From Streptomyces liliiviolaceus (GTDB lineage Bacteria; Actinomycetota; Actinomycetes; Streptomycetales; Streptomycetaceae): a stretch of DNA of 64,000 nucleotides. Each line of letters starts with the position of its first letter. The stretch's first letter is position 1. Of this stretch, positions 32,191-52,245 are shown piece after piece. Below the pieces are notes generated by a model that did no database searches, was not told where the DNA came from, and saw only the letters and a program-made list of their open reading frames with translations. The translations under genes were made by a program, and so were the position numbers. The stretch is taken from positions 6,820,001 to 6,884,000 of the forward strand of contig NZ_JAGPYQ010000001.1 of assembly GCF_018070025.1 (NCBI RefSeq), read 5' to 3'.

Positions 32191-34335
32191 CTACCGGGGC
32201 GCCGGTCCCCGCGGCACCGACGTCGGCGCCGGGGCGTACCCCGTGGGTCGGGTGGTGAAAACCCCCCGGCCCTGCGTGCGGCTTCGCAACCGCGTCGCGT
32301 AGCCGAACAGTTCGGCCAGCGGCACGGTGGCGGTGACGACCGCCGCACCCGCCCGCGCGGCCGAGCCGGTGACCCGGCCGCGCCGCGCCGCCAGGTCGCC
32401 CAGGACTCCGCCCACGGCCTCGTCGGGAGCGGTGACCGTGACCTCGACCACCGGTTCCAGCACCGCCATCGCGCACGCCCGCAACGCCTCACGCAGGGCG
32501 AACCGTCCGGCCGTCCGGAACGCCATCTCCGACGAGTCCTTCGTATGGGTCGCCCCGTCCCGTAGGACGACCCGCAACCCGGTCACGGGATGCCCGCCGA
32601 GCGGACCTTCGCCCAGCGCGTCCCGGCAACCGGCCTCGACGGCCCGTACGTACTCCTGCGGCACCCGACCGCCGACGACGGTCGACCGGAACTCGAACCC
32701 GGTCGCGCTGCCTCCGTCCTCCCGGTCGGCGTCGCCTTCCAACGGCTCCACGTCCAGTACGACATGGGCGAACTGGCCCGCCCCGCCGTCCTGTTTGACA
32801 TGCCGAAAGACGAGGCCTGCGACCCCGCGAACGACGGTCTCCCGGTAGGCCACCCTCGGCCGGCCGACCCGGACGTCCAGCCCCTGGGCGCGGCGGATCT
32901 TCTCCACCGCCACCTCCAGATGCAGTTCGCCCATGCCGGACAGCACGGTCTGCCCGGTCTCGTCGTCGGTCCGCACCACCAGCGACGGATCCTCCTCCAC
33001 GAGCCGTGCCAGCGCCGCCACCAGTCGGTCCGTGTCCGTGCTCGTCCGGGCCTCGACCGCCACCGACACGACGGGCTCGGCGGTGACCGGCGCTTCGAGG
33101 AGCAGCGGGGCCCCGGGCGCGCACAGGGTCGATCCCGCGCGGGCGGACTTCAGTCCGACCACGGCGACGATGTCCCCGGCCACGGCCCGGTCCAGCTGGG
33201 CGTGCCGGTCGGCCTGGACGCGCAGGATCCGGCCGATCCGTTCGGTGCGCGTCGCGTTCGCGTCCCGCACGGCCACCACTTCTCCCTTCCGGATCGTCCC
33301 CGAGTACAGCCGCAGATAGGTCAGCCGCCCGGTGGCGGTGGAGTGCACCTTGAACGCCAGGGCCGCGAACGGCGCGTCCGGATCGGCGGCCCGCACCTGC
33401 TCGCCACCGTCCAGCGTGCCCCGTACGGCGGGCACGTCCGACGGCGAGGGCAGATACGCGACCACGGCGTCCAGCAGCGGCTCGATGCCCCGGTTGCGGT
33501 AGGCCGAGCCGCAGAGCACGACCACACCGTCACCCGTACGGGTCAGGTCGCGCAGCGCGCCCGCGAGGGTCCGCGCGGAGAGGCCGGCCGGCGTACAGAA
33601 CTCCTCCAGTGCGCCCGGATGCAGCTCCGCGACGGCCTCCTCCAGCAGCCGTCGCCGCCGCCCCGCCTCCTCCGACAGACCTTCGGGTACGGGCCCTTCC
33701 TCGACCCCGCCGGTCCCTGCGGCGCCCTCGGCCTCCTCGGCCCAGACCAACGCCCGCATCCGCACCAGGTCGACGACTCCGCGGAACCCGTCCTCCGAGC
33801 CGATGGGCAACTGCACGACCAGCGGCGCCGGATGCAGCCGTTCCCGGATGGACGCGACCGCCGAGTCGAGGTCGGCCCCGGCCCGGTCCAGCTTGTTGAC
33901 GAACGCGATCCGCGGCACACCGAACCGGTCGGCCTGCCGCCACACCGACTCGCTCTGCGGCTCGACCCCCGCGACGGCGTCGAACACCGCGACCGCCCCG
34001 TCCAGTACGCGCAGCGAACGTACGACCTCGTCGGAGAAGTCGACGTGCCCCGGAGTGTCGATCAGGTTGACGCGATGCCCATCCCAGTCACAGCTGACGG
34101 CGGCGGCGAAGATGGTGATCCCGCGGTCGCGCTCCTGGGGGTCGAAGTCGGTGACGGTCGTCCCGTCATGCACCTCACCACGCTTGTGCGTGGTCCCGGT
34201 GACATACAGGATCCGCTCGGTGACGGTGGTCTTGCCCGCGTCGACATGGGCGAGGATGCCGAGATTGCGGACGGCGTCCAGCGGGGCGGCGGGATGAGAG
34301 AAGCGACGGTCATGAAGATGGAGTTCGGTACGCAC
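32191..34335 (-). CDS. elongation factor G paralogue (EF-G2/FusB-like translational GTPase)
   Basis: This 714-residue GTPase has G1 AHVDAGKTT, switch [10 protein letters not shown]3 DTPGHVDF and G4 NKLD, followed by EF-G domains II-V. The domain IV phrase [10 protein letters not shown] fits EF-G better than TetM-type ribosomal protection proteins. It is clearly not the str-operon fusA: it stands alone, and the N-terminus is extended by about 22 residues before [10 protein letters not shown]. Ribosome rescue, recycling or antibiotic protection are possible roles. GTG at 34335 has GGAAGG upstream. A leader ORF and hairpin 100-220 nt upstream suggest translation-dependent control. Confidence 0.88.
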
Positions 34336-36396: not shown

Positions 36397-38049
36397 CTAG
36401 GCGCCCTTGGCCACGGTCACCGTCACCGAGAGGTCGCCGGAGTTGTCCGAGACGCAGCCGTTGCCGCCGTCGTTTTCGCCGTCGTTGATGCGCAGTTCGA
36501 GCGTGCCCCCGGCCGCCGCCTCGAAGGTCCACTGCTTACCCACGATATGGCTCTCCTCGCCCTCCCCGGCCTCGGTGAAACGCCCGAGGAGCGCGCCGAA
36601 GGGAGCCGAGTCGTTGACCTTGCAGTCCGCCGCGGCGAAGTCGAGCGACCTGTCGGTCTCGGCGTCGTAGCCGTCCGGTCCTGTCAGTGGCATCTCGGGG
36701 TCGTCCACGGTCCACTGGCCCGATGTGAAGCGGACGGTGACCGTGTCGCCGGACTGGATGGGTGTGTCGGTGACCCGCTGCCAGCCCTCGGCGGCATGGA
36801 CCACCGACTCGTTGACGACGGGGGTCGCCGGCAGGGGCGTACCGGCCGGCAGGGAGATACCGGCCTCGCTGCCCGGCTCCTTGCCCTCCGACGCGTCGGC
36901 CTGGGCAGACCGTTCGAACGGCGGCACCCCGGCGAGGAAGAGGCCGAGGCCGGTCCCCGCGAAGACGAGGGCGACCGAGGCGACGACCAGGCCCATGACC
37001 CGTCTGTCACGCCGGCTCTCGTCCCTGCGCATCAACGCGGACGCGGTCGCGGCGTCGTACCGCGAAGTGGGTGCCGCGTGGTCCGTCCACGGGACGTGCT
37101 GACGGGTCCGGGTCTCCGCCTCCGCGAGGGAGACCCCGGCCGGGATCGCGATCCGGACGGTGGCCGACGGCAGCGACCTCGGGTCCGCAGCGAGCCCTTC
37201 GGCGGCGTGCCTCAGGGCGGTCGTCGCGTCGGGGATGGAGGGCCGCTCCTCGGGCGCCTTGCGCAGCAGCGCCTCGACGGCCGGGAGCAGCGGGCCCAAC
37301 CGCGCGGGCAGATTGGGCTGTTCGTACGCGACGGCGTGCAGGGTGGCCGCGTGCGCGGGGCGCCGGAAGGGGGACGCTCCGGTGGCGGCGGTGACGAGTG
37401 TCGCGGCCAGCGACCACAGGTCCGAAGCGGGCCCGACCTGACCGCCGTTGACGCGTTCGGGCGCCATGTACTCGACGGAGCCCGCGAATTCGCCCGAGTT
37501 GGTGAGCGCCTCGCCGTCGTCGACGACGGCGATGCCGAAGTCCGTCAGGACCGCGCTGCCGTCACGGCGCAGCAGGACGTTGGCCGGTTTGACGTCCCGG
37601 TGCAGGGCTCCGGCGGCGTGCACGGCGTCGAGCGCGCCGAGCAGTTGAGCACCCAGTTCGGCGACTTTCGTGGGCTCCAACGGGCCGTTCCGTGCGATGA
37701 GTTGAGCGAGCGAGGGGCCGTCGATGAGTTCCATGACGATCCACAGCCGGTCCTCGTACTCGACGAGGTCGTGGACTCCGACCACATGCGGGTGCGGCAC
37801 CCTGGCCACCACCCGCGCCTCCCGTACCGCACGGCGCAGCCACACGCGGCGGTCCTCGTCGCCCTGGGTGAAGACGTGCAATTCCTTGGCCGCGACATCC
37901 CGCGCGAGCAGTTGGTCGTGGGCCCGCCAGACGGTGCCCATGCCGCCCCGGCCGAGTTGGTCGGTCAGCCGGTACCGACCCGCGATCAGACGCCCGGCAC
38001 CCCGTGCCGCATGCGCCGCACCCTGCTGATCATCACTGCCGGACAACAC
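36397..38049 (-). CDS. membrane Ser/Thr protein kinase (PknB-like) with extracytoplasmic domain
   Basis: This protein of about 550 residues has a kinase domain at residues 26-285: GRGGMGTVW, Lys55 in AAKE, H150-R-D in the catalytic loop, D170-F-G and APERV. A juxtamembrane region follows. One membrane segment (VMGLVVASVALVFAGTGLGL, about residues 360-380) is followed by an extracytoplasmic domain of about 165 residues that ends in a beta-rich region with an Asn/Gly/Asp-rich stretch (NDGENDGGNGC). It may sense wall or solute signals. GTG at 38049 is chosen; a TTG one codon later is equally possible. It is divergent from the small peptide/HExxH enzyme genes. Confidence 0.9.
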   Translation of the reverse strand: MLSGSDDQQGAAHAARGAGRLIAGRYRLTDQLGRGGMGTVWRAHDQLLARDVAAKELHVFTQGDEDRRVWLRRAVREARVVARVPHPHVVGVHDLVEYEDRLWIVMELIDGPSLAQLIARNGPLEPTKVAELGAQLLGALDAVHAAGALHRDVKPANVLLRRDGSAVLTDFGIAVVDDGEALTNSGEFAGSVEYMAPERVNGGQVGPASDLWSLAATLVTAATGASPFRRPAHAATLHAVAYEQPNLPARLGPLLPAVEALLRKAPEERPSIPDATTALRHAAEGLAADPRSLPSATVRIAIPAGVSLAEAETRTRQHVPWTDHAAPTSRYDAATASALMRRDESRRDRRVMGLVVASVALVFAGTGLGLFLAGVPPFERSAQADASEGKEPGSEAGISLPAGTPLPATPVVNESVVHAAEGWQRVTDTPIQSGDTVTVRFTSGQWTVDDPEMPLTGPDGYDAETDRSLDFAAADCKVNDSAPFGALLGRFTEAGEGEESHIVGKQWTFEAAAGGTLELRINDGENDGGNGCVSDNSGDLSVTVTVAKGA

Positions 38050-38372
38050 GCCCGCCTCACGCCCCTCCCGACGGCTTCCTCGCCACCGGCCCCATGTATC
38101 ACTCGAACACCGGCGAGCATAGCGGTGGGAACCGACGTCGGAACGACGGCTCGGAGAAGTGGGCCGCGGGGCGGCCGGACCGGACCCGGACCGCGTCGCG
38201 GGGGCGGAACCACAAGGCCACCGGGCGTGTCGCACCCACCACACTGCGGTGCTGGGAACAGGGCGCGACATGGGTCCCATCAGCCTTCTTTTACCGCTAT
38301 CCACGACACGTCTACGGGACAGGTTCCGGGACAACGCTCCTCTCGGTGTGGGACGTGCGGTAGCGGAAGATG

Positions 38373-38407
38373 ATGTTCCTGGTGGGGTGATCCCTCGCCG
38401 GGAACAT
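38373..38407 (+). promoter_or_regulatory. inverted repeat upstream of the small peptide gene
   Basis: ATGTTCCTGG (38373-38382) and CCGGGAACAT (38398-38407) match at nine of ten positions with 15 bases between. They end 11 bp before the longest start of the peptide ORF. This could be an operator or a leader hairpin. The remaining part of the 38050-38418 gap holds no convincing gene. Confidence 0.5.
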
Positions 38408-38418
38408 TCCGTCCGCAC

Positions 38419-38574
38419 ATGACCGAAGGGACTGAAGACATGCTGGTGGACCTCATCGAGACCCCCGAGCTGGCTCCGCAGACGTACCTCGACGACGAGT
38501 CGCCGCTGGTGGCCGTCGACGCACCGGAGGAGCGCGCCTGGCTCCCGTCGTACCAGGCGGTCCGCGCCGCCTGA
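38419..38574 (+). CDS. small acidic peptide, candidate RiPP precursor
   Basis: This 51-codon ORF starts at ATG 38419. An internal ATG at 38440 is preceded by GAAGGG with nine bases spacing and may be the true start, giving 44 residues. The leader-like part is acidic (EDMLVDLIETPELAPQTYL, then DDE) and the C-terminus WLPSYQAVRAA is neutral to basic, the layout expected of a precursor with an N-terminal recognition region. It ends 30 bp before an HExxH peptide-modification enzyme carrying a PqqD-like domain. The frame has normal high-GC codon use. I recognise no named precursor family, so the assignment rests on size, composition and context. Confidence 0.6.
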   Translation: MTEGTEDMLVDLIETPELAPQTYLDDESPLVAVDAPEERAWLPSYQAVRAA

Positions 38575-38604
38575 CGTTCGACGCGTTCGGTCGGCACCGG
38601 ATCC

Positions 38605-40332
38605 GTGGCGGGTCCGGTGCCGGTCGTCCCAGGTTCCACGTCCGTCATCTCGCCCGCGCCCCCGAAGGACGGTCCGTCGTTGTCCTCCTCGCTCTCCGCC
38701 GCCCAGCCGGCCGCACCCTCCACCGACCGGCCGGGTTCGCCGGCCCCCGCCGGACCGGTCGCCGGTGAACCGAGCGCCTCCGGACCGGTCGCTTCCGGAC
38801 CGGTCGCCGACCGGGTGGCGCAGGCCGACACCCTGCTCTGTGCCGATCGGCAGTTCGGCGACTCCCCGGCCATCGGTGAACGCAACCTCGCCCGGTTCCG
38901 GCTGGGCCTCACGATGCTGGCGCGGCATGACGGCGAGGCCGCGGACGTGCTGCGGGAGACGGCCGCCGCGTCCGACGAACGTCTGCGACCCCTGCTGTAC
39001 GACCCCGTGCTGCGCAACTGCTTCGAGGTCGACCTCGCGCTCCTGGACAGCGACCGCTTCGAACACAGCTCGTTCGGGGCGTACGTACGCGGCCACCTGG
39101 CCACCGGTGCGGCGGCGGACGCCCCTGCCACCACGGACGCGGCGCCCTCCGCAGGTTCCCTCGCAGGTCCGTCCGCGGGTCCCTCCGAAGCCCTCATGCG
39201 TCCGCACCGGCCCGCCTGGCCGGCTCTCGGGGACACCTGGGTGCTGGCCGAACCCGCACCACGGGGTGACGCGCAGAAGCTGCTGGCCGAGCGCCTCATG
39301 GAGCTGTACCGGGACGCGCTCGGCGACGGCCGGGCAGCGGGCCCCGTCGATCCGACGGACACGACGCTCGCCGTCCTGCGGGAGGGCGCGGAACTCCTCG
39401 CCACGCTGCTGCCCGCCGCCGGAGCCGGTGTGCTCGGGCACGTCAGCGTGGTCGGCTTCACCAGCCGGGAGAGCGAGGAAGGTCCCCTGCAGTCCATGTC
39501 GGGCGGCGACCCGCTCCCCTCGACCGTGCTGCTCGCGCCGGAACGCTGCACGTCTCCGTGGCTCGCGGCGGAGAGCCTGTTGCACGAGGGCGCCCACCTG
39601 AAGCTCTTCGACGCGCTCCGTGCGGGTTCCGTGGTCAGGAACGCCACCGAGCAGGTCCCCATCCCGTGGCGGATCGGCTCCTGGACGGTCATCCGGGTGT
39701 TCGTCGCCCTCCACTTCTACGTGCACCTGCTGGTCTTCCGGGCCGCGGCCGACGCGGCGGGCGAAGAGGTCCGTGAGCGGTTCGGTCCGCCCCCGCCCGC
39801 CGAGGACCTCGACGAGCCGAGCCCGGGTACCCCCGCCGCCCTGAACGGCGAGTACCGCACCAGTGCGGAGAGGGCCCGCTATCTCGCCGAATGCGTACTG
39901 TCGCTGCCGGACGAGGCCCTCACCGAGCACGGGCACCGGTTCGCCCGCTGGCTCCTCACCGCGCTGCGTCTGGTGGACGAGGACGCGCCGCAGCCGCGTG
40001 AGCGGGCGGCGACGACTCGGCCCGCCGAACCGGGGCCTTCTCAGCAGGACGGCCCCACGGGCGCCCTGCGGCGCGTCACGCCGGTGGACGCGTGCGCCCT
40101 GCCCGGCCTCGGGCAACTGGTCGTCAGCCCTGCGCGGTCGGCCCGGATGCACTGGCTGAACGCGCGCTCCTGGACCGTCTACTCCTTGTGCGACGGACGT
40201 GACCTCGGCTCGCTGCACACGGCCTACGCGCGGGCGGCGGGTCTCACGCCCGGTTCGGAGGAGGTCGGCCGGCAGGTCGGCGACAGTCTGCGCCTGCTCG
40301 TGACTTCCGGCCTGGTCAGCCAGGACGGGTGA
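38605..40332 (+). CDS. HExxH-motif (aKG-HExxH type) peptide-modification enzyme with C-terminal PqqD-like domain
   Basis: This 575-residue protein has a low-complexity N-terminus (about 60 residues, so the start is uncertain) and then the family core. The metal motif is H327-E-G-A-H331 in LLHEGAHLKL. A conserved-looking His pair, H370-F-Y-V-H374 in VALHFYVHLL, may supply the third ligand. Proteins of this family (TIGR04267-like) include recently described Fe/2-oxoglutarate peptide beta-hydroxylases, often fused to radical-SAM enzymes. The last 80 residues (MHWLNARSWTVYSLCDGR onward to GLVSQDG) resemble a PqqD-like RiPP recognition element. With the small ORF upstream it forms a candidate two-gene RiPP locus. 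It stops three bases from the convergent response regulator. Confidence 0.82.
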   Translation: MAGPVPVVPGSTSVISPAPPKDGPSLSSSLSAAQPAAPSTDRPGSPAPAGPVAGEPSASGPVASGPVADRVAQADTLLCADRQFGDSPAIGERNLARFRLGLTMLARHDGEAADVLRETAAASDERLRPLLYDPVLRNCFEVDLALLDSDRFEHSSFGAYVRGHLATGAAADAPATTDAAPSAGSLAGPSAGPSEALMRPHRPAWPALGDTWVLAEPAPRGDAQKLLAERLMELYRDALGDGRAAGPVDPTDTTLAVLREGAELLATLLPAAGAGVLGHVSVVGFTSRESEEGPLQSMSGGDPLPSTVLLAPERCTSPWLAAESLLHEGAHLKLFDALRAGSVVRNATEQVPIPWRIGSWTVIRVFVALHFYVHLLVFRAAADAAGEEVRERFGPPPPAEDLDEPSPGTPAALNGEYRTSAERARYLAECVLSLPDEALTEHGHRFARWLLTALRLVDEDAPQPRERAATTRPAEPGPSQQDGPTGALRRVTPVDACALPGLGQLVVSPARSARMHWLNARSWTVYSLCDGRDLGSLHTAYARAAGLTPGSEEVGRQVGDSLRLLVTSGLVSQDG

Positions 40333-40335
40333 CAC

Positions 40336-41034
40336 CTACGCACCCGCGGAGCCCGTGTCCGGATAGGCCGTCTCCAGTCCGGTCAGCCGGGCGGACACGA
40401 TGGCCTCCAGCCGGTTCGACACGTTGATCTTCGGCAGGATGGCGGAGACGTAGTTGCGTACGGTCTTCTCCGATATGAACAGCTCCTGGGCTATCCGACG
40501 GTTTCCGTGGCCCAGGGAGACCAGTCGCAGCACTTCCCGTTCCCGGTTCGTGAGGGCCGGGAACGGGAGCGGTTCGTCGGCCTCCGCCAGACGCTTCAGC
40601 AGGGCGAAGAGCTCGCTGCCGGGCCGGGGGCCCAACGTCACGTACCCGCGTCGCACGGCTCGTACGGTACGCAGCAGGTCCGCCGTCTCCGTGTTCTTGA
40701 GCAGGTAGCCCGTGGCCCCTGCCATCAGCGCGGTCAGCAGCAACTTGTCGTCGTCGTGGTCCGGGGAGACCATGGCGACCAGCTGCGGGGGCGGGCTCTG
40801 CCGGCGCAGCTGCTGAAGCAGCCCGATTCCGGCGTGGGCCGGCAGGTCGAGGTCGACGAGGACCACGTCGGGCTTCTCCTCCCGGACCGCCCGGACGCCG
40901 GCGTGCGGATCGTGGGTCCCCGCGACAACGCCGATCCCGCCGTCCTCAAGCGCGGAACGCAAGCCGCTCAGGACCAGGGGAATGCTCTCTATCAACACCA
41001 CTGACGTACCGGCGTCGTGGACCTCTTCGGCCAT
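40336..41034 (-). CDS. orphan NarL/LuxR-type response regulator with atypical receiver
   Basis: This 232-residue regulator has a receiver domain with Asp61 in LVDLDLP and a conserved Lys in YLLKN. The acidic pair that normally binds magnesium (DD or ED) is E16-S17, so phosphorylation may be weak or absent. The C-terminal LuxR helix-turn-helix begins LTNREREVLRLVSLG and contains NRRIAQELFISEKTVRNYV. No sensor kinase lies next to it. ATG at 41034 follows a 9-bp inverted repeat 26 bp upstream. It is convergent with the HExxH enzyme gene with only a 3-bp gap. Confidence 0.9.
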   Translation of the reverse strand: MAEEVHDAGTSVVLIESIPLVLSGLRSALEDGGIGVVAGTHDPHAGVRAVREEKPDVVLVDLDLPAHAGIGLLQQLRRQSPPPQLVAMVSPDHDDDKLLLTALMAGATGYLLKNTETADLLRTVRAVRRGYVTLGPRPGSELFALLKRLAEADEPLPFPALTNREREVLRLVSLGHGNRRIAQELFISEKTVRNYVSAILPKINVSNRLEAIVSARLTGLETAYPDTGSAGA

Positions 41035-41059
41035 TCTCGTTCTTCCTCACACCCGGACT

Positions 41060-41092
41060 GGCGTGAGGCGTTACGGAGCGCTACCTCACGCC
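41060..41092 (-). promoter_or_regulatory. 9-bp inverted repeat upstream of the orphan regulator
   Basis: GGCGTGAGG (41060-41068) and CCTCACGCC (41084-41092) are perfect arms with a 15-bp spacer, starting 26 bp upstream of the regulator's ATG. It is a candidate autoregulatory operator. The rest of the 41035-41220 gap shows no gene. Confidence 0.5.
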
Positions 41093-41220
41093 GTCATGAT
41101 CAGCGTCCGGTTGCAGCGTAGAACTCCGCTAGCACGACGGGCTGTTGCGCCGCGACGGCAGCTGTGAGGACTCCGGGAAATCACTCGGTCCGGCAGGCGG
41201 GCCGTGGAGGCGGCATACGA

Positions 41221-41251
41221 AAAGGGCCACGACCCTCAGGTCGTAGCCCTC
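41221..41251 (-). terminator. intrinsic terminator of tRNA-Leu
   Basis: On the minus strand a stem (AGGGC-ACGACC arms at 41224-41235 and 41240-41251, one unpaired base each side) is followed by TTTT (41221-41224). It lies 24 bp downstream of the tRNA 3' end. Confidence 0.85.
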
Positions 41252-41274
41252 ATCCGCGTACCGCTGTAGTGAGT

Positions 41275-41359
41275 GTCCGAGGGGGGACTTGAACCCCCAC
41301 GCCCGATAAAGGGCACTAGCACCTCAAGCTAGCGCGTCTGCCATTCCGCCACCCGGACC
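41275..41359 (-). tRNA. tRNA-Leu, anticodon GAG
   Basis: This 85-nt class II tRNA has acceptor arms GTCCGGG and CTCGGAC, discriminator A, and D-loop GGCGGAATGGCAGACGC. The anticodon loop TTGAGGT sits between CTAGC and GCTAG, giving anticodon GAG for CUC/CUU codons. A long variable arm and the T-loop GTTCAAG follow. CCA is not encoded. CUC is a very common Leu codon in this high-GC genome, so the gene is probably heavily used. Confidence 0.97.
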
Positions 41360-45614: not shown

Positions 45615-47300
45615 ATGCCCGACGACAACAGCCAGAACCTCATCTCCGGTGGGCACCTGGTCGCCAAGGCACTCAAAGCGGAGGGTGTGGAGGTCATCTA
45701 CACCCTCTGTGGCGGCCACATCATCGATATCTACGACGGCTGCGTCGACGAAGGCATCGAGGTTGTCGACGTACGCCACGAGCAGGTCGCCGCCCACGCC
45801 GCCGACGGTTACGCACGCATCACCGGCAAGCCCGGCTGCGCCGTCGTCACCGCCGGCCCCGGCACGACCGACGCCGTGACGGGCGTCGCCAACGCCTTCC
45901 GCGCGGAGTCCCCCATGCTGCTGATCGGCGGTCAGGGGGCCCACACCCAGCACAAGATGGGGTCCCTGCAGGACCTGCCGCACGTCGACATGATGACGCC
46001 GATCACCAAGTTCGCCGCGACCGTGCCGGACACCGCGCGGGCCGCCGACATGGTGTCCATGGCGTTCCGCGAGTGCTACCACGGGGCGCCCGGACCCTCC
46101 TTCCTGGAGATCCCGCGCGATGTCCTGGACGCCAAGGTGCCGGTGGAGAAGGCCCGGGTGCCCGCCGCCGGGCAGTACCGGGCCTCGACCCGCTCGGCCG
46201 GTGACCCCGAGGCCGTCGAGAAGCTCGCCGACCTCCTCGTGCACGCCGAGAAGCCGGCGATCCTGCTGGGCAGCCAGGTGTGGACGACCCGGGGCACCGA
46301 GTCCGCCATCGACCTCGTACGCACCCTCAACATCCCCGCCTACATGAACGGCGCCGGACGCGGCACGCTGCCGCCGGGAGACCCGCACCACTTCCAGCTC
46401 TCCCGCAGGTACGCCTTCTCCAACGCCGACGTCATCGTCATCGTCGGTACGCCCTTCGACTTCCGCATGGGCTACGGCAAGCGGCTGTCGCAGGACGCGA
46501 CCGTCGTGCAGATCGACCTCGACTACCGGACCGTCGGCAAGAACCGGGACATCGACCTCGGCATCGTCGGGGACCCGGGGCTCGTCCTGAAGTCGGTCGC
46601 GGAGGCCGCCTCCGGGCGCCTCAACGGAGGCGCGTCGAAGCGCAAGGAATGGCTCGACGAACTGCGCGCCGCCGAGCAGACCGCCATCGAGAAGCGGCTG
46701 CCGAGCCTGAAGTCCGACGCCTCGCCGATCCACCCGTACCGGCTGGTCAGCGAGATCAACGACTTCCTGACCGAGGACTCCATCTACATCGGGGACGGCG
46801 GCGACATCGTCACCTTCTCCGGGCAGGTCGTGCAGCCCAAGTCACCCGGGCACTGGATGGACCCGGGCCCGCTCGGCACGCTCGGCGTCGGCATCCCCTT
46901 CGTGCTGGCCGCCAAGAAGGCGCGGCCCGACAAGGAGGTCGTCGCCCTCTTCGGGGACGGCGCGTTCTCCCTCACCGGCTGGGACTTCGAGACCCTCGTC
47001 CGCTACGACCTCCCCTTCGTCGGCATCGTCGGCAACAACTCCTCCATGAACCAGATCCGCTACGGCCAGGCCGCCAAGTACGGCCTGGAGCGCGAGCGCG
47101 TCGGCAACACCCTCGGCGACGTCCACTACGACAAGTTCGCCCAGATGCTGGGCGGTTACGGCGAGGAGGTCCGCGACCCCGCCGACATCGGCCCCGCCCT
47201 GCGGCGCGCCCGCGAGTCGGGCAAGCCGTCACTCATCAACGTCTGGGTCGACCCGGACGCGTACGCCCCCGGAACCATGAACCAGACGATGTACAAGTGA
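45615..47300 (+). CDS. ThDP-dependent oxalyl-CoA decarboxylase / 2-hydroxyacyl-CoA lyase family enzyme
   Basis: This 561-residue ThDP enzyme has the catalytic Glu in [16 protein letters not shown] and the ThDP motif [10 protein letters not shown] ending in VGNNSS. The overall layout is that of acetolactate synthase, oxalyl-CoA decarboxylase and 2-hydroxyacyl-CoA lyases. The next gene is a clear formyl-CoA transferase, which favours oxalyl-CoA as substrate. However, the Tyr-Glu pair and the GGIY loop of Oxalobacter oxalyl-CoA decarboxylase read differently here ([12 protein letters not shown] and [11 protein letters not shown]), so another acyl-CoA such as a 2-hydroxyacyl-CoA is possible. ATG at 45615 follows GAAGGGACAGG. 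Confidence 0.82.
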
Positions 47301-47310
47301 GGTGGAACCG

Positions 47311-48585
47311 TTGACCACAACGACAGCGACGACGCCCACGGCTACGCCGGCGGCCTCGGCCAAGGCCCTCCAAGGCGTCCGTGTCCTCGACATGACGCAC
47401 GTCCAGTCCGGTCCCTCCGCCACCCAGCTGCTCGCCTGGCTCGGCGCGGACGTCGTCAAACTGGAGGCGCCGACCGGAGACATCACGCGCAAGCAGCTGC
47501 GCGACCTCCCCGACGTCGACTCCCTCTACTTCACGATGCTCAACTGCAACAAGCGGAGCATCACTCTCAACACCAAGACCGAGCGCGGCAAGGAGATCCT
47601 CACCGAGCTGATCCGGCGCTCGGACGTCATGGTCGAGAACTTCGGACCGGGCGCGGTCGACCGCATGGGCTTCACCTGGGACCGTATCCAGGAGATCAAT
47701 CCGCGGATCGTCTATGCCTCCATCAAGGGGTTCGGGGACGGCCCGTACACCAACTTCAAGGCGTACGAGGTCGTCGCCCAGGCCATGGGCGGGTCGATGT
47801 CGACCACCGGTTTCGAGGACGGGCCGCCGCTGGCGACGGGAGCCCAGATCGGTGACTCGGGCACGGGCATCCACGCGGTGGCCGCGATCCTCGCCGCCCT
47901 GTTCCAGCGGGAGAACACGGGGCGCGGGCAGCGGGTGAACGTGGCCATGCAGCACGCGGTACTGAATCTGTGCCGGGTGAAACTGCGGGACCAGCAGCGC
48001 CTCGGGCATGGGCCGCTGGCCGAATATCCCAACGACGACTTCGGCGACGAAGTTCCCAGGTCCGGAAACGCGTCCGGCGGCGGCCAGCCCGGCTGGGCCG
48101 TCAAGTGCGCGCCGGGCGGTCCCAACGACTACGTGTACGTCATCGTGCAGCCCGTCGGCTGGAAGCCGCTCTCCGAGCTGATCGGGCGGCCCGAGCTGGC
48201 GGACGACCCCGAGTGGGCGACCCCGGAGGCCCGCCTGCCGCAGCTCACCAAGATGTTCCAGCTGATCGAGGAGTGGTCGTCCACGCTCCCCAAGTGGCAG
48301 GTGCTGGAGAAGCTCAACGCCCACAACATCCCGTGCGGCCCGATCCTCTCCACCAAGGAGATCATCGAGGACGAGTCGCTGGTCGCCAACGAGATGGTCG
48401 TGACGGTGCCGCACCCCGAGCGGGGCGACTTCGTGACCGTGGGCAGCCCCCTCAAGCTCTCCGACTCCCCCGTGGACGTGACCAGTTCGCCGCTGCTCGG
48501 CGAGCACAACGAAGAGGTGTACGTCGGCGAGCTCGGGCTCGGCGACGAGGAGCTGCGCCTGCTCAAGTCGAACGGAGTGATCTGA
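47311..48585 (+). CDS. frc: formyl-CoA:oxalate CoA-transferase (class III)
   Basis: This 424-residue class III CoA-transferase exchanges CoA between formyl-CoA and oxalate. It matches Oxalobacter FRC closely by eye: [37 protein letters not shown], the catalytic Asp in [10 protein letters not shown], and the glycine loop [14 protein letters not shown] at 47311 is chosen because GAGGTGG lies five bases before it; a GTG at 47302 is the alternative. It lies 10 bp after the ThDP enzyme and 3 bp before the acyl-CoA synthetase, so all three form one operon. Confidence 0.93.
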
Positions 48586-48588
48586 TTG

Positions 48589-50733
48589 ATGGCCGAAGAC
48601 CGGGTGCTGAGGGTACGCAGGCTCCTCGACGCCGTGCGGGCCTCAGGACGGACGGCGCTGACCGCCCCCGAGGGCAAGGTGGTCGCCGACGCGTACGCGA
48701 TCGCCGTTCCGGGTGAGGAGCTGGCGACCGACGTCGACGAGGCGGTCGCGTACGCGGCGCGCTTCGGCGGTCCCGTCGTGATGAAGATCGTGTCTCCGGA
48801 CATCCTCCACAAGACCGACGCGGGCGGCGTGATCGTCGGCGTGGAGGGCGCGGCGGACGTACGCGCCGCCTTCCACAAGATCGTCGAGAGCGCCCGGGCG
48901 TACGACGCGCAGGCCCGCATCGAGGGCGTGCAGGTGCAGGAACTGCTGCCCCAGGGGCAGGAGGTGATCGTCGGCGCGGTGACCGATCCGACGTTCGGGA
49001 AGGTCGTGGCGTTCGGGCTCGGCGGTGTGCTGGTCGAGGTCCTGAAGGACGTCACGTTCCGGCTGGCGCCCGTCGACGCGGACGAGGCGCTGTCGATGCT
49101 GGACTCGATCCGGGCCGCGGAGATTCTGCGCGGGGTGCGGGGCGCACCGGCGGTGGACCGGTGGGCGGTCGCCGAGCAGATCCGCCGGGTCTCCGAACTG
49201 GTCTCGGACTTCCCCGAGATCGCGGAGGTGGACCTGAACCCGGTGATCGCCACCCCGGAGGGCGCGATGGCCGCCGACATCCGGGTCATCCTCGCCGAGT
49301 CGGTGCCCAAGCCCCGCCGCACCTACGGCCGCGACGAGATCCTCACCTCGATGCGCCGGTTGATGCAACCGTCGTCGGTGGCCGTGATCGGCGCCTCCAA
49401 CGAACAGGGCAAGATCGGCAATTCGGTCATGCGCAACCTCATCGACGGCGGTTTCTCCGGGGAGATCCATCCGGTGAACCCCCGGGCCGATGACATTCTC
49501 GGCCGCAAGGCGTACAAGAGTGTCACCGACGTTCCCGGTGAGGTGGATGTGGCGGTCTTCGCCATCCCGGCCAAGTTCGTGGCCTCGGCCCTGGAGGAGG
49601 TGGGACGCAAGGGGATCCCCAACGCCGTACTGATCCCCTCCGGCTTCGCGGAGACCGGTGAGCAGGGACTCCAGGACGACATCGTCGCCATCGGCGAGCG
49701 GTACGGCGTGCGGCTCCTCGGGCCGAACATCTACGGCTACTACTCGACGTGGCAGGACCTGTGCGCCACGTTCTGCACACCGTACGACGTGAAGGGCGGT
49801 GTCGCGCTCACCTCGCAGTCCGGTGGCATAGGGATGGCCATTCTGGGCTTCGCACGCACCACGAAGACGGGTGTTTCCGCGATCGTGGGGCTCGGCAACA
49901 AGTCGGACCTCGACGAGGACGACCTGCTGACCTGGTTCGGCGAAGACCCCAACACCAAGTGCATCGCCATGCACCTGGAGGACCTCAAGGACGGGCGGGC
50001 CTTCGTGGAGGCCGCGCGGGCGACCGTCCACAAGAAGCCGGTGGTCGTCCTGAAGGCGGGCCGTACGGCGGCCGGGGCGAAGGCCGCGGGCTCGCACACG
50101 GGCGCCCTCGCGGGCGACGACGCCGTGTACGAGGACATCCTGAAGCAGGCCGGTGTCATCAGGGCGCCCGGCCTGAACGAAATGCTGGAGTACGCGCGCG
50201 CGTTGCCGGTGCTGCCCACTCCTCGGGGCGACAACATCGTGATCATCACGGGCGCCGGCGGCAGTGGCGTACTGCTGTCCGACGCGGTGACCGACAACGG
50301 CCTCTCCCTCATGGAGATCCCGCCGGACCTGGACGCGTCCTTCAGGAAGTTCATCCCGCCCTTCGGGGCCGCAGGCAACCCGGTGGACATCACGGGCGGC
50401 GAGCCGCCGTCGACGTACGAGGCGACGATCAGGCTCGGTCTGGAGGACCCGCGGATCCATTCGCTGGTCCTCGGCTACTGGCACACCATCGTGACCCCTC
50501 CCATGGTCTTCGCCGAGCTCACCGCGCGCGTGGTGGCCGAATTCAGGGAGCGCGGGATCGAGAAGCCCGTCGTGGCGTCGCTCGCGGGCGACGTCGAGGT
50601 CGAGGAGGCCTGCCAGTACCTCTACGAACACGGGGTCGTGGCCTACCCGTACACGACCGAGAAGCCGGTGGCGGTGCTCGGTGCGAAGTACCGCTGGGCG
50701 CGGGCCGCGGGGCTGTTGGGGGGCGGTTCATGA
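48589..50733 (+). CDS. ADP-forming acyl-CoA synthetase (acetate-CoA ligase family)
   Basis: This is a 714-residue fused NDP-forming acyl-CoA synthetase. An ATP-grasp domain comes first (residues about 1-230), with the conserved His in DILHKTDAGGVIVG and EVDLNPVIATP. The CoA-binding and ligase domains follow: PSSVAVIGASNEQGKIG, SQSGGIGMAI, and the phospho-His region in GSHTGALAGDDA. It could activate a carboxylic acid with CoA, or harvest ATP from an acyl-CoA made by the pathway. ATG at 48589 has GGAG 11 bases upstream; TTG at 48586 is possible. It is the third gene of the oxalate-type operon. Confidence 0.9.
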   Translation: MAEDRVLRVRRLLDAVRASGRTALTAPEGKVVADAYAIAVPGEELATDVDEAVAYAARFGGPVVMKIVSPDILHKTDAGGVIVGVEGAADVRAAFHKIVESARAYDAQARIEGVQVQELLPQGQEVIVGAVTDPTFGKVVAFGLGGVLVEVLKDVTFRLAPVDADEALSMLDSIRAAEILRGVRGAPAVDRWAVAEQIRRVSELVSDFPEIAEVDLNPVIATPEGAMAADIRVILAESVPKPRRTYGRDEILTSMRRLMQPSSVAVIGASNEQGKIGNSVMRNLIDGGFSGEIHPVNPRADDILGRKAYKSVTDVPGEVDVAVFAIPAKFVASALEEVGRKGIPNAVLIPSGFAETGEQGLQDDIVAIGERYGVRLLGPNIYGYYSTWQDLCATFCTPYDVKGGVALTSQSGGIGMAILGFARTTKTGVSAIVGLGNKSDLDEDDLLTWFGEDPNTKCIAMHLEDLKDGRAFVEAARATVHKKPVVVLKAGRTAAGAKAAGSHTGALAGDDAVYEDILKQAGVIRAPGLNEMLEYARALPVLPTPRGDNIVIITGAGGSGVLLSDAVTDNGLSLMEIPPDLDASFRKFIPPFGAAGNPVDITGGEPPSTYEATIRLGLEDPRIHSLVLGYWHTIVTPPMVFAELTARVVAEFRERGIEKPVVASLAGDVEVEEACQYLYEHGVVAYPYTTEKPVAVLGAKYRWARAAGLLGGGS

Positions 50734-50856
50734 CCTGACCCGGTGCAGGGGCGGGCCGACGGTGCGCGTCGGCCCGCCCCGGGACCCGTGCGCACACGAA
50801 AGGCATTGGACAGGGGGCGCTGGCCAGATCTTTCGACGCAAGGGGTGCTACGAGAC

Positions 50857-52245
50857 ATGACAACCACCGACATCACGACACCCGTCCCCTACAGGGAGGT
50901 GACGGACCGCAACGGCCGCCTTTACCGGATCGGCGAGACCGACCGGGACATCATGGGGCGACCACGCTGGACCATGGTGCTCTTCCCCTGGATGGGCATG
51001 CTCGGCATCAGCTCCTCGGAGTACGCGTTCACCTCCGCCGAGGACACCCTGCACGAGGCCCACCTGTGGAACAGTGGGCACATCTTCTGGCTGATGGGCG
51101 TCTGGATCTTCTTCCAGGCGGCCGTGGCCTTCCCGGCCGGCCAGCTGCGCGAGAGCGGACGGCTCCCCGCGCGGTACGCCATGATGCTCGGCGCGTGCGG
51201 CACACTCCTGGGCTATCTCTCCCTGGCGTTCGCACCGCATGTGATCGTGGCCTACATAGGCTTCGGCATGTTCAGCGGCATCGGCGCCGGACTTGTCTAC
51301 GCGACCTGCGTGAACATGGTCGGCAAGTGGTATCCGGAGCGCAAGGGCGGCAAGACCGGCATGGTCAACGGCGGTTTCGCCTACGGTTCCGTGCCCTTCG
51401 TGTTCCTGTTCACCTCGTACATGGACCTGTCCAACTACGAGACGGTGCTGGTCTTCGTGGGCGCGATCTGCTGCACGGTCGTCGCGGTCGCCGGCTGGTT
51501 CTTCAAGGACCCGCCGAAGAACTGGTGGCCCGCGCACGTGGACCCGCTGAAGACCTCGACCGACCCGCGGGTCGTCCGGGCGCTGGCGAAGAACCCGCCG
51601 GCGGTCAAGCAGTACACACCGCGCGAGGCGGCCAGGACGCCCGTGCTGTGGATGATGTGGTTCTGCCTGCTGTGCACGGCCGGCATCAACATCTTCGGTA
51701 TCGCCATGCAGGTCCCCTTCGGGAAGGAGATGGGGTTCGCCGGCGGCATCGTGGCCACCGCCATGTCTCTCAAGGCCATCGTGAACGGCACCGGGCGGGG
51801 TGTCATCGGCTGGATCTCCGACCGCTACGGACGCCGGAACACACTGGTCATCGTGTGTATCGTGCTCGGCTGCTCGCAGTTCGGCGTGTTCTTCTCCGGG
51901 AACATCGGCTCGATGCCGTTCTTCCTGGTCTGCTCGATGATCTCCGGCTTCGGCGGCGGCGCGATCTTCCCGCTGTTCGCGGCGATGACCGCGGACTACT
52001 TCGGTGAGAACAACAACGCCTCCAACTACGGCATGGTCTACAGCTCCAAGCTCATCTCCGGTCTCGTCGGCTCCGGTGTGGGAGCCGTCGTCGTGAGCGC
52101 CTGGGGCTACGGAGGCGCCTTCGCGCTGGCCGGCAGCATCGGCCTCGGCTCCGCGGTCCTGGCGCTCTTCCTCCGGGCTCCCGGCCGGCCCAGCGCCAAG
52201 AGCGTCGTACCCAACCCACACCCTATAGGTGAGGAGATGGCCTGA
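50857..52245 (+). CDS. MFS transporter of the oxalate/formate antiporter (OFA) family
   Basis: This 462-residue protein has about 12 hydrophobic segments and the OFA phrases GFGMFSGIGAGLVYATCVN, MVNGGFAYGSVPFVF and FGGGAIFPLFAAMTADYFG. Members exchange dicarboxylates such as oxalate against formate. It lies 123 bp downstream of the synthetase gene on the same strand, completing an uptake-plus-degradation set with the CoA-transferase and ThDP enzyme. ATG at 50857 follows AAGGGG at 13 bases. A strong hairpin terminator follows 74 bp after the stop. Confidence 0.9.
   Translation: MTTTDITTPVPYREVTDRNGRLYRIGETDRDIMGRPRWTMVLFPWMGMLGISSSEYAFTSAEDTLHEAHLWNSGHIFWLMGVWIFFQAAVAFPAGQLRESGRLPARYAMMLGACGTLLGYLSLAFAPHVIVAYIGFGMFSGIGAGLVYATCVNMVGKWYPERKGGKTGMVNGGFAYGSVPFVFLFTSYMDLSNYETVLVFVGAICCTVVAVAGWFFKDPPKNWWPAHVDPLKTSTDPRVVRALAKNPPAVKQYTPREAARTPVLWMMWFCLLCTAGINIFGIAMQVPFGKEMGFAGGIVATAMSLKAIVNGTGRGVIGWISDRYGRRNTLVIVCIVLGCSQFGVFFSGNIGSMPFFLVCSMISGFGGGAIFPLFAAMTADYFGENNNASNYGMVYSSKLISGLVGSGVGAVVVSAWGYGGAFALAGSIGLGSAVLALFLRAPGRPSAKSVVPNPHPIGEEMA

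Follow-up and report, generated by a model that had tools for sequence, protein, structure and literature searches.

In the available parts of its description, ChlB/ChlH (PDB 8s5f) joins a radical S-adenosylmethionine (SAM) domain to an aKG-HExxH domain, and PflC/PosC, PesO and BpmH/BipH are described, as far as the accessible text goes, as stand-alone HExxH oxygenases that act on the precursors of ribosomally synthesized and post-translationally modified peptides (RiPPs). PesO hydroxylates a Pro, according to the accessible part of PMC13060819. The clusters of PflC/PosC, PesO and BpmH/BipH hold, in the same partial descriptions, more modifying enzymes (MNIO, nitroreductase, radical SAM, AS-like) together with transporters or peptidases. 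In FxSxx-COOH and related systems, a small peptide bearing a conserved C-terminus and a zincin-like enzyme are coupled to proteins of the NB-ARC (AP-ATPase)/TPR type (Kaur et al., 2020, PMC7159879). Here we describe a locus from the 11.1 Mb genome of Streptomyces liliiviolaceus, found in a stretch of 64,000 nucleotides (the window), in which a small and a large open reading frame (ORF) stand in tandem on the + strand and encode a precursor-like peptide and an aKG-HExxH enzyme with a predicted RiPP recognition element (RRE) at its C-terminus. It is likely that the two form a minimal RiPP-type system, in which the peptide is the precursor, the enzyme oxidises its R-A-W-x-P segment and the product may act via a regulator.

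Set beside ChlB/ChlH, the enzyme carries a fused RRE in place of the radical SAM domain, and no cyclophane synthase gene was seen next to the pair. It shares with PflC/PosC, PesO and BpmH/BipH the stand-alone HExxH oxygenase, although the cores of those systems are different and no fused RRE appears in the available descriptions of them. FxSxx-COOH systems resemble the locus in the features named above; they differ in that here there is no radical SAM enzyme, the RRE is built in, the core is another one, and the part of the NB-ARC-TPR partner is taken by a DNA-binding regulator of the AfsR/SARP type. The last ~90 residues of the enzyme are modelled with the same fold as the lasso-peptide RRE (TbiB1) and PqqD, but are here fused to an HExxH oxygenase. 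Taken singly, the parts are all of known kinds. Their combination, of an HExxH oxygenase and a fused RRE with one ERAWxP precursor, and with regulators in place of further enzymes, was not seen in the open-licence literature searched, nor was an ERAWxP peptide paired there with any RRE-fused HExxH enzyme.

The peptide gene (38440..38574, + strand) runs from an ATG to a TGA and encodes 44 residues (MLVDLIETPELAPQTYLDDESPLVAVDAPEERAWLPSYQAVRAA). An earlier note on this DNA, made from the sequence alone, had begun it at 38419; the most likely start is the ATG at 38440, because this ATG and a GA-rich stretch upstream of it are the conserved features. A leader-like part with P9 is followed by a core with D27, E31, R32, A33, W34, P36 and Y38, and the invariant or nearly invariant positions of the core lie in the segment D-A-P-E-E-R-A-W-L-P-S-Y (residues 27-38; 38518..38553, + strand). 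The leader motif [IV]-[ED]-x-P-x-[LF] is, we assume, merely reminiscent of the YxxP motif of lasso peptides. A protein search with the peptide as query returned 11 relatives. In a 30-row peptide alignment, M1, P9, D27, E31, R32, W34 and P36 were invariant and A33 nearly so; used as a query, this alignment retrieved 43 proteins at E <= 1, of which 39 scored below 1e-6. Thirty-three of the 43 were taken into a 36-row alignment (10 near-identical or longer ones were left out), in which R32 and A33 stood at at least 90% and the other invariant positions were unchanged. Position 38 is mostly Tyr or Phe, the exceptions being an Asp in P0097 and an Ile in P0100.

The conservation of the peptide ORF goes beyond chance. 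Over 11 close loci, pairwise differences at codon positions 1, 2 and 3 numbered 307, 208 and 642, and the ratio of nonsynonymous to synonymous differences (pN/pS) was 0.37 in frame, compared with 1.17 and 2.31 when the other two forward frames were read. On the reverse strand the ratios were 1.18, 0.43 and 2.77, and the value of 0.43 is in our view the mirror of codon position 3. The pattern D...ER[AS]W.P was matched 24 times in 1,231,224 translated residues of the scanned loci against 0.05 times per shuffled set (20 shuffles), and the looser ER[AS]W.P was matched 26 times against 1.9 in the same residues, with 11 short or duplicate loci excluded from both counts.

The enzyme gene occupies 38680..40332 (+ strand). 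It had previously been read as a 575-residue protein beginning 30 bp behind the peptide ORF, but a TTG at 38680, with AAGGACGG just before it, is the more likely start, because relatives show AAGGACGG followed by TTG, GTG or ATG at this place and homologous proteins begin there. The protein then has 550 residues and, with the start so moved, the intergenic gap is 105 bp; residue numbers below count from the GTG at 38605, the listed ORF start. The enzyme scored 53.4 bits against the TIGR04267 profile (curated cut-off 40), and is predicted to have the ChlB-like fold with HExxH and a later His. The H, E and H of the metal-binding motif HEGAH (39583..39597, + strand) are invariant in a 52-row enzyme alignment, as are a P-W-R motif (39664..39672, + strand), which aligns with the PWR of ChlH, and H370, Y372 and H374 of H-F-Y-V-H (39712..39726, + strand). 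The second His of the latter aligns with a His of ChlH and, to judge from the sequence, is likely to be the third metal ligand.

In the predicted structure, the C-terminal PqqD-like domain (40054..40329, + strand) forms a three-stranded sheet and three helices, matching solved RREs. The Pfam match to PqqD is weak in the window enzyme (E 0.13) and lies above the gathering score in the homologue P0042 (27.9 vs 23.4 bits). The scan found no Pfam domain in the window enzyme, and thus no radical SAM fusion; radical SAM was likewise not found in the scanned neighbouring proteins of the window, so the locus is not of the ChlB type that pairs radical SAM with HExxH. The small ORF ending in WLPSYQAVRAA, the HEGAH, the downstream HxxxH (HFYVH) and the PqqD-like C-terminus that the earlier note had pointed out are all present. 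Its picture of a stand-alone TIGR04267-type enzyme with a built-in RRE and a single adjoining precursor-like peptide agrees with the profile score, and the comparison with RREs that it had proposed gave an RRE-like predicted fold. Public databases label the enzymes 'aKG-HExxH-type peptide beta-hydroxylase' and the peptides 'hypothetical protein'.

Peptide and enzyme are found together in other genomes as well. A scan of genome contigs gave 28 loci, 23 of them of the fused type (L002-L024) and five of a split type (L025-L029). At 21 of the 23 fused-type loci the peptide lies upstream of the enzyme on the same strand, so that neither of the two outcomes which the earlier note had named as refuting (no small ORF beside close homologues, or a C-terminal fold unlike PqqD) was observed. 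One of the two exceptions, L003, has just 90 bases available upstream of the match, and L022:7792-8091 (Kitasatospora sp. Root107) shows a family-like peptide start with no in-frame core, the enzyme frame being open. Genome searches added G070 (L045) and G212 (L046), each with peptide and enzyme. The genetic linkage expected of a RiPP system, a precursor-like peptide with a conserved core adjoining a putative modifying enzyme, is present here. The module is rare and patchy, judging by genome samples that were capped draws. The peptide occurred in three of 101 sampled Streptomyces genomes, with enzyme matches above 700 bits in the same three and of merely 44-144 bits in four others; G048 is practically identical to L006. 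Among 41 relatives the enzyme was found in its own genome only, and the peptide was found in 2 genomes of a 137-genome sample of the order.

The split-type sister loci (L025:9133-11262; L026:2357-4556; L027:9136-11346; L028:2033-4178; L029:9130-11291) encode, besides an HExxH enzyme, a PqqD-like protein that stands on its own (94-108 residues) and a flavin adenine dinucleotide-dependent monooxygenase, and look like another undescribed RiPP family. In all five, a 38-residue ORF between the PqqD-like and monooxygenase genes ends in RDQRLWPPWYMQKH or similar (RLWPPW[YH]), and L036 (from G089) also has this peptide. R-x-W-x-P is common to the window peptide and the 38-residue peptide, and since the fused- and split-type enzymes are only ~30% identical, this sharing is a partly independent pointer to the place of action.

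Between the two genes of the window lies a hairpin of 13 pairs (38592..38622, + strand; arms 38592-38604 and 38610-38622), identified by conservation and covariation in 10 close loci. L011, where the same stem was not seen, was excluded from this alignment. Paired cells made up 96.2%, and 4 of the 13 pairs had changed on both sides. None of 500 shuffles attained the covariation score, and slid versions paired at 23.8-48.5%, while one of five measures, that of further pair types, was not above shuffles (370 of 500). The hairpin may serve to set the peptide-to-enzyme ratio.

Neighbouring genes were assigned by clustering our own gene calls, and the close clade is made up of the window and L002-L012 (12 rows of the tree). 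Behind the enzyme, on the - strand (40336..41034), is the gene of an orphan NarL-type response regulator (PF00072 and PF00196) with a pseudo-receiver, in which E-S replaces the acidic pair. The earlier note had listed this regulator as a neighbour, and it recurs in convergent position behind the enzyme in 9 of the 12 close-clade loci. The acidic pair is E-S or E-G in all nine, with the Asp and Lys retained, and such receivers count as pseudo-receivers under the definition in the accessible part of PMC12632262. A match at E <= 1e-45 was found only in G000 and G048 of the 101 genomes, both of which have the module. In 10 of the 12 loci L013-L024 (all but L014 and L022), the pair is adjoined by an AfsR-like protein, its BTAD, NB-ARC and TPR make-up having been scanned in four proteins. 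The gene is mostly behind the enzyme, and upstream of the peptide in L016, L020 and L024; both regulator types are present at L013 and L046. The AfsR-like proteins fall into groups with 34-42% identity between groups. In eight of the AfsR-type genomes, BTAD proteins number 16-57 per genome and 267 in total, or ~1 per 290 kb, and by our own arithmetic chance adjacency is therefore a few per cent per independent lineage, the lineages being few. The flanks are otherwise dissimilar between loci, save for the window and L002. Since nothing but regulators recurs beside the pair, it is reasonable to suppose that the product is regulatory, and taken alone a regulatory role is plausible but tentative.

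In the mechanism proposed here, the N-terminal half of the peptide would be the leader and its C-terminal third, with E-R-A-W-x-P-x-Y, the core. The C-terminal RRE would hold the leader, so that the core is brought to the metal site of an enzyme that would work as an iron(II)/2-oxoglutarate oxygenase of the aKG-HExxH family. Oxygen would most likely be added to one residue of R-A-W-x-P, with Pro36 or Trp34 as first guesses, and the oxidised peptide would most likely act on or through the adjoining regulator as an intracellular or short-range signal. If this is true, the pair is among the smallest peptide-modifying systems, with one precursor and one enzyme bearing its own recognition domain, and would be a clean model for aKG-HExxH chemistry, a family whose products are not yet predictable according to the accessible part of PMC13060819. 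The activation of pseudo-receiver response regulators is called a mystery in the accessible part of PMC12632262, and the regulator recurring beside the pair offers a direct test case for a modified peptide driving pseudo-receiver or AfsR-like NB-ARC/TPR regulators. More generally, the pairing of peptide and enzyme, usually beside a transcription regulator, suggests that soil bacteria have here a small system of peptide modification with a possible part in signalling.

Other explanations can be given for the same pair. Zincin metallopeptidase is the older reading of such peptide/HExxH pairs, and here the enzyme would release a C-terminal fragment of the peptide, with the RRE-like domain merely positioning it. 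We consider this quite unlikely; in the available parts of the sources, PflC/PosC also cleave the backbone, PflC hydrolysing without a leader (PMC12636437), and known aKG-HExxH relatives act as hydroxylases of Asp, His, Phe, Gln and Pro (PMC13060819). The conserved hairpin directly behind the small ORF in 10 loci would also fit an upstream regulatory ORF, in which the hairpin is the attenuator of the enzyme gene and the enzyme has some other substrate. This is very improbable, as the amino-acid core is kept over genera while codon position 3 varies freely (the counts are given above), the ORF has no stretch in which codons for a single amino acid follow one another, and the R-x-W-x-P peptide of the split type sits behind, not before, the enzyme gene; moreover, a search at the locus found no terminator-like site. 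It found no sigma-70-type promoter either, and an Rfam search of 37900-41300 gave no match. RiPP enzymes usually serve natural products and AfsR/SARP-type proteins are commonly pathway regulators, so the pair might instead make an exported antibiotic-like RiPP, with proteolysis and export encoded elsewhere and the neighbour as a pathway-specific regulator. The position of the pair beside LanB-type enzymes in L014 and L045, and beside a LanC-like protein in L014, is in keeping with this. Against it, the core is near-invariant over genera, which would be unusual for diversifying antibiotics, no exporter or protease recurs beside the pair in the neighbour gene clusters, and LanB is found at L014 and L045 only. 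An exported product is thus possible, if rather doubtful.

The proposal of an oxidised, regulatory peptide has its own difficulties, of which the backbone cleavage by PflC/PosC, going beyond hydroxylation, is one. The overall identity of the two peptide types is just 18-24%, and the R-x-W-x-P that they share is short: R.W.P.[YFW] gave 41 matches in 894,706 residues, ~15 of them elsewhere (by subtraction). Three of the 12 close loci (L008, L009 and L012) have no such response regulator in the available flank, and both regulator types are missing at L014, L022 and L045. As the earlier note had said of the adjacent genes, a scan of seven neighbouring proteins of the window revealed no maturation protease and no exporter. 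There is also no obvious site common to the peptide promoter and the regulator promoter.

A further step, which we think unlikely as a whole, would make the oxidised RAWxP peptide a built-in chemical signal of metabolic state that is read by the adjoining regulator. The enzyme that makes it would depend on oxygen, iron(II) and 2-oxoglutarate, so that this state would be reflected in how much of the peptide is modified; the reader would be the pseudo-receiver response regulator, which could not be phosphorylated in the usual way, in one branch and the NB-ARC/TPR protein of AfsR type in the other. If so, bacteria would have in a small peptide their counterpart of hydroxylation-based oxygen sensing, and natural ligands would be at hand for two classes of regulators that mostly lack a known activating signal.

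Other DNA elements were seen around the pair. The inverted repeat that had been noted before the peptide as nearly perfect (38373-38387 / 38393-38407) is present, with 80% complementarity, but it did not hold up as a general feature or operator, being shared in full only with L002 and in part with L004 among 11 aligned loci. By eye, most of the 11 close loci also share a triple GGGAC-containing stretch ahead of the peptide. The regulator gene is preceded by a perfect 9-bp inverted repeat, GGCGTGAGG / CCTCACGCC (41060..41092, no strand assigned), which by eye has similar counterparts in several relatives and is from its sequence a possible operator of that gene itself.

The Ser/Thr kinase that had been named as a flanking gene was rejected as part of the unit, since clear orthologues near the locus occur only in L002 (96%) and L004 (77%); L011 (51% over 269 residues) and L015 (36%) have only distantly similar kinases. 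A defence system was likewise rejected, as PADLOC gave no match for the enzyme and only generic ones (TPR, HTH, kinase) for the regulators and the kinase. Oligopeptide-binding proteins adjoin L013, L014, L022 and L046, with none in the scanned window. The accessible part of PMC11303876 describes BldK as the oligopeptide transporter that imports a developmental peptide signal in S. coelicolor. The gene typA adjoins the module in L013, L045 and L046, and in L013 and L046 genes of an oligopeptide transporter are close by too. Since typA and the oligopeptide transporter (binding protein) are also neighbours in G012 and G013, two genomes in which searches for the module gave no match, this neighbourhood may be a mere insertion site. 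At L022, an oligopeptide-binding protein precedes the peptide remnant elsewhere, the sole importer case not explained by typA. An importer as partner of the module, on the pattern of imported-peptide pheromone systems with Opp/BldK and a TPR receptor, is therefore a weak hint.

The LanB-type enzymes beside the pair, at L014:6264-14645 and L045:1932-9867, are dehydratases; L045 also has a sulfotransferase, and the peptides at these two loci have no cysteine. Farther out in the window, the genes at 45615-52245 look, from their ORFs, like a set for oxalate degradation, made up of a thiamine-dependent decarboxylase, a CoA-transferase, an acyl-CoA synthetase and an MFS transporter. A second EF-G-like protein, with elongation factor G domains, is encoded at 32191-34335, and presumably resembles ribosomal-protection factors.
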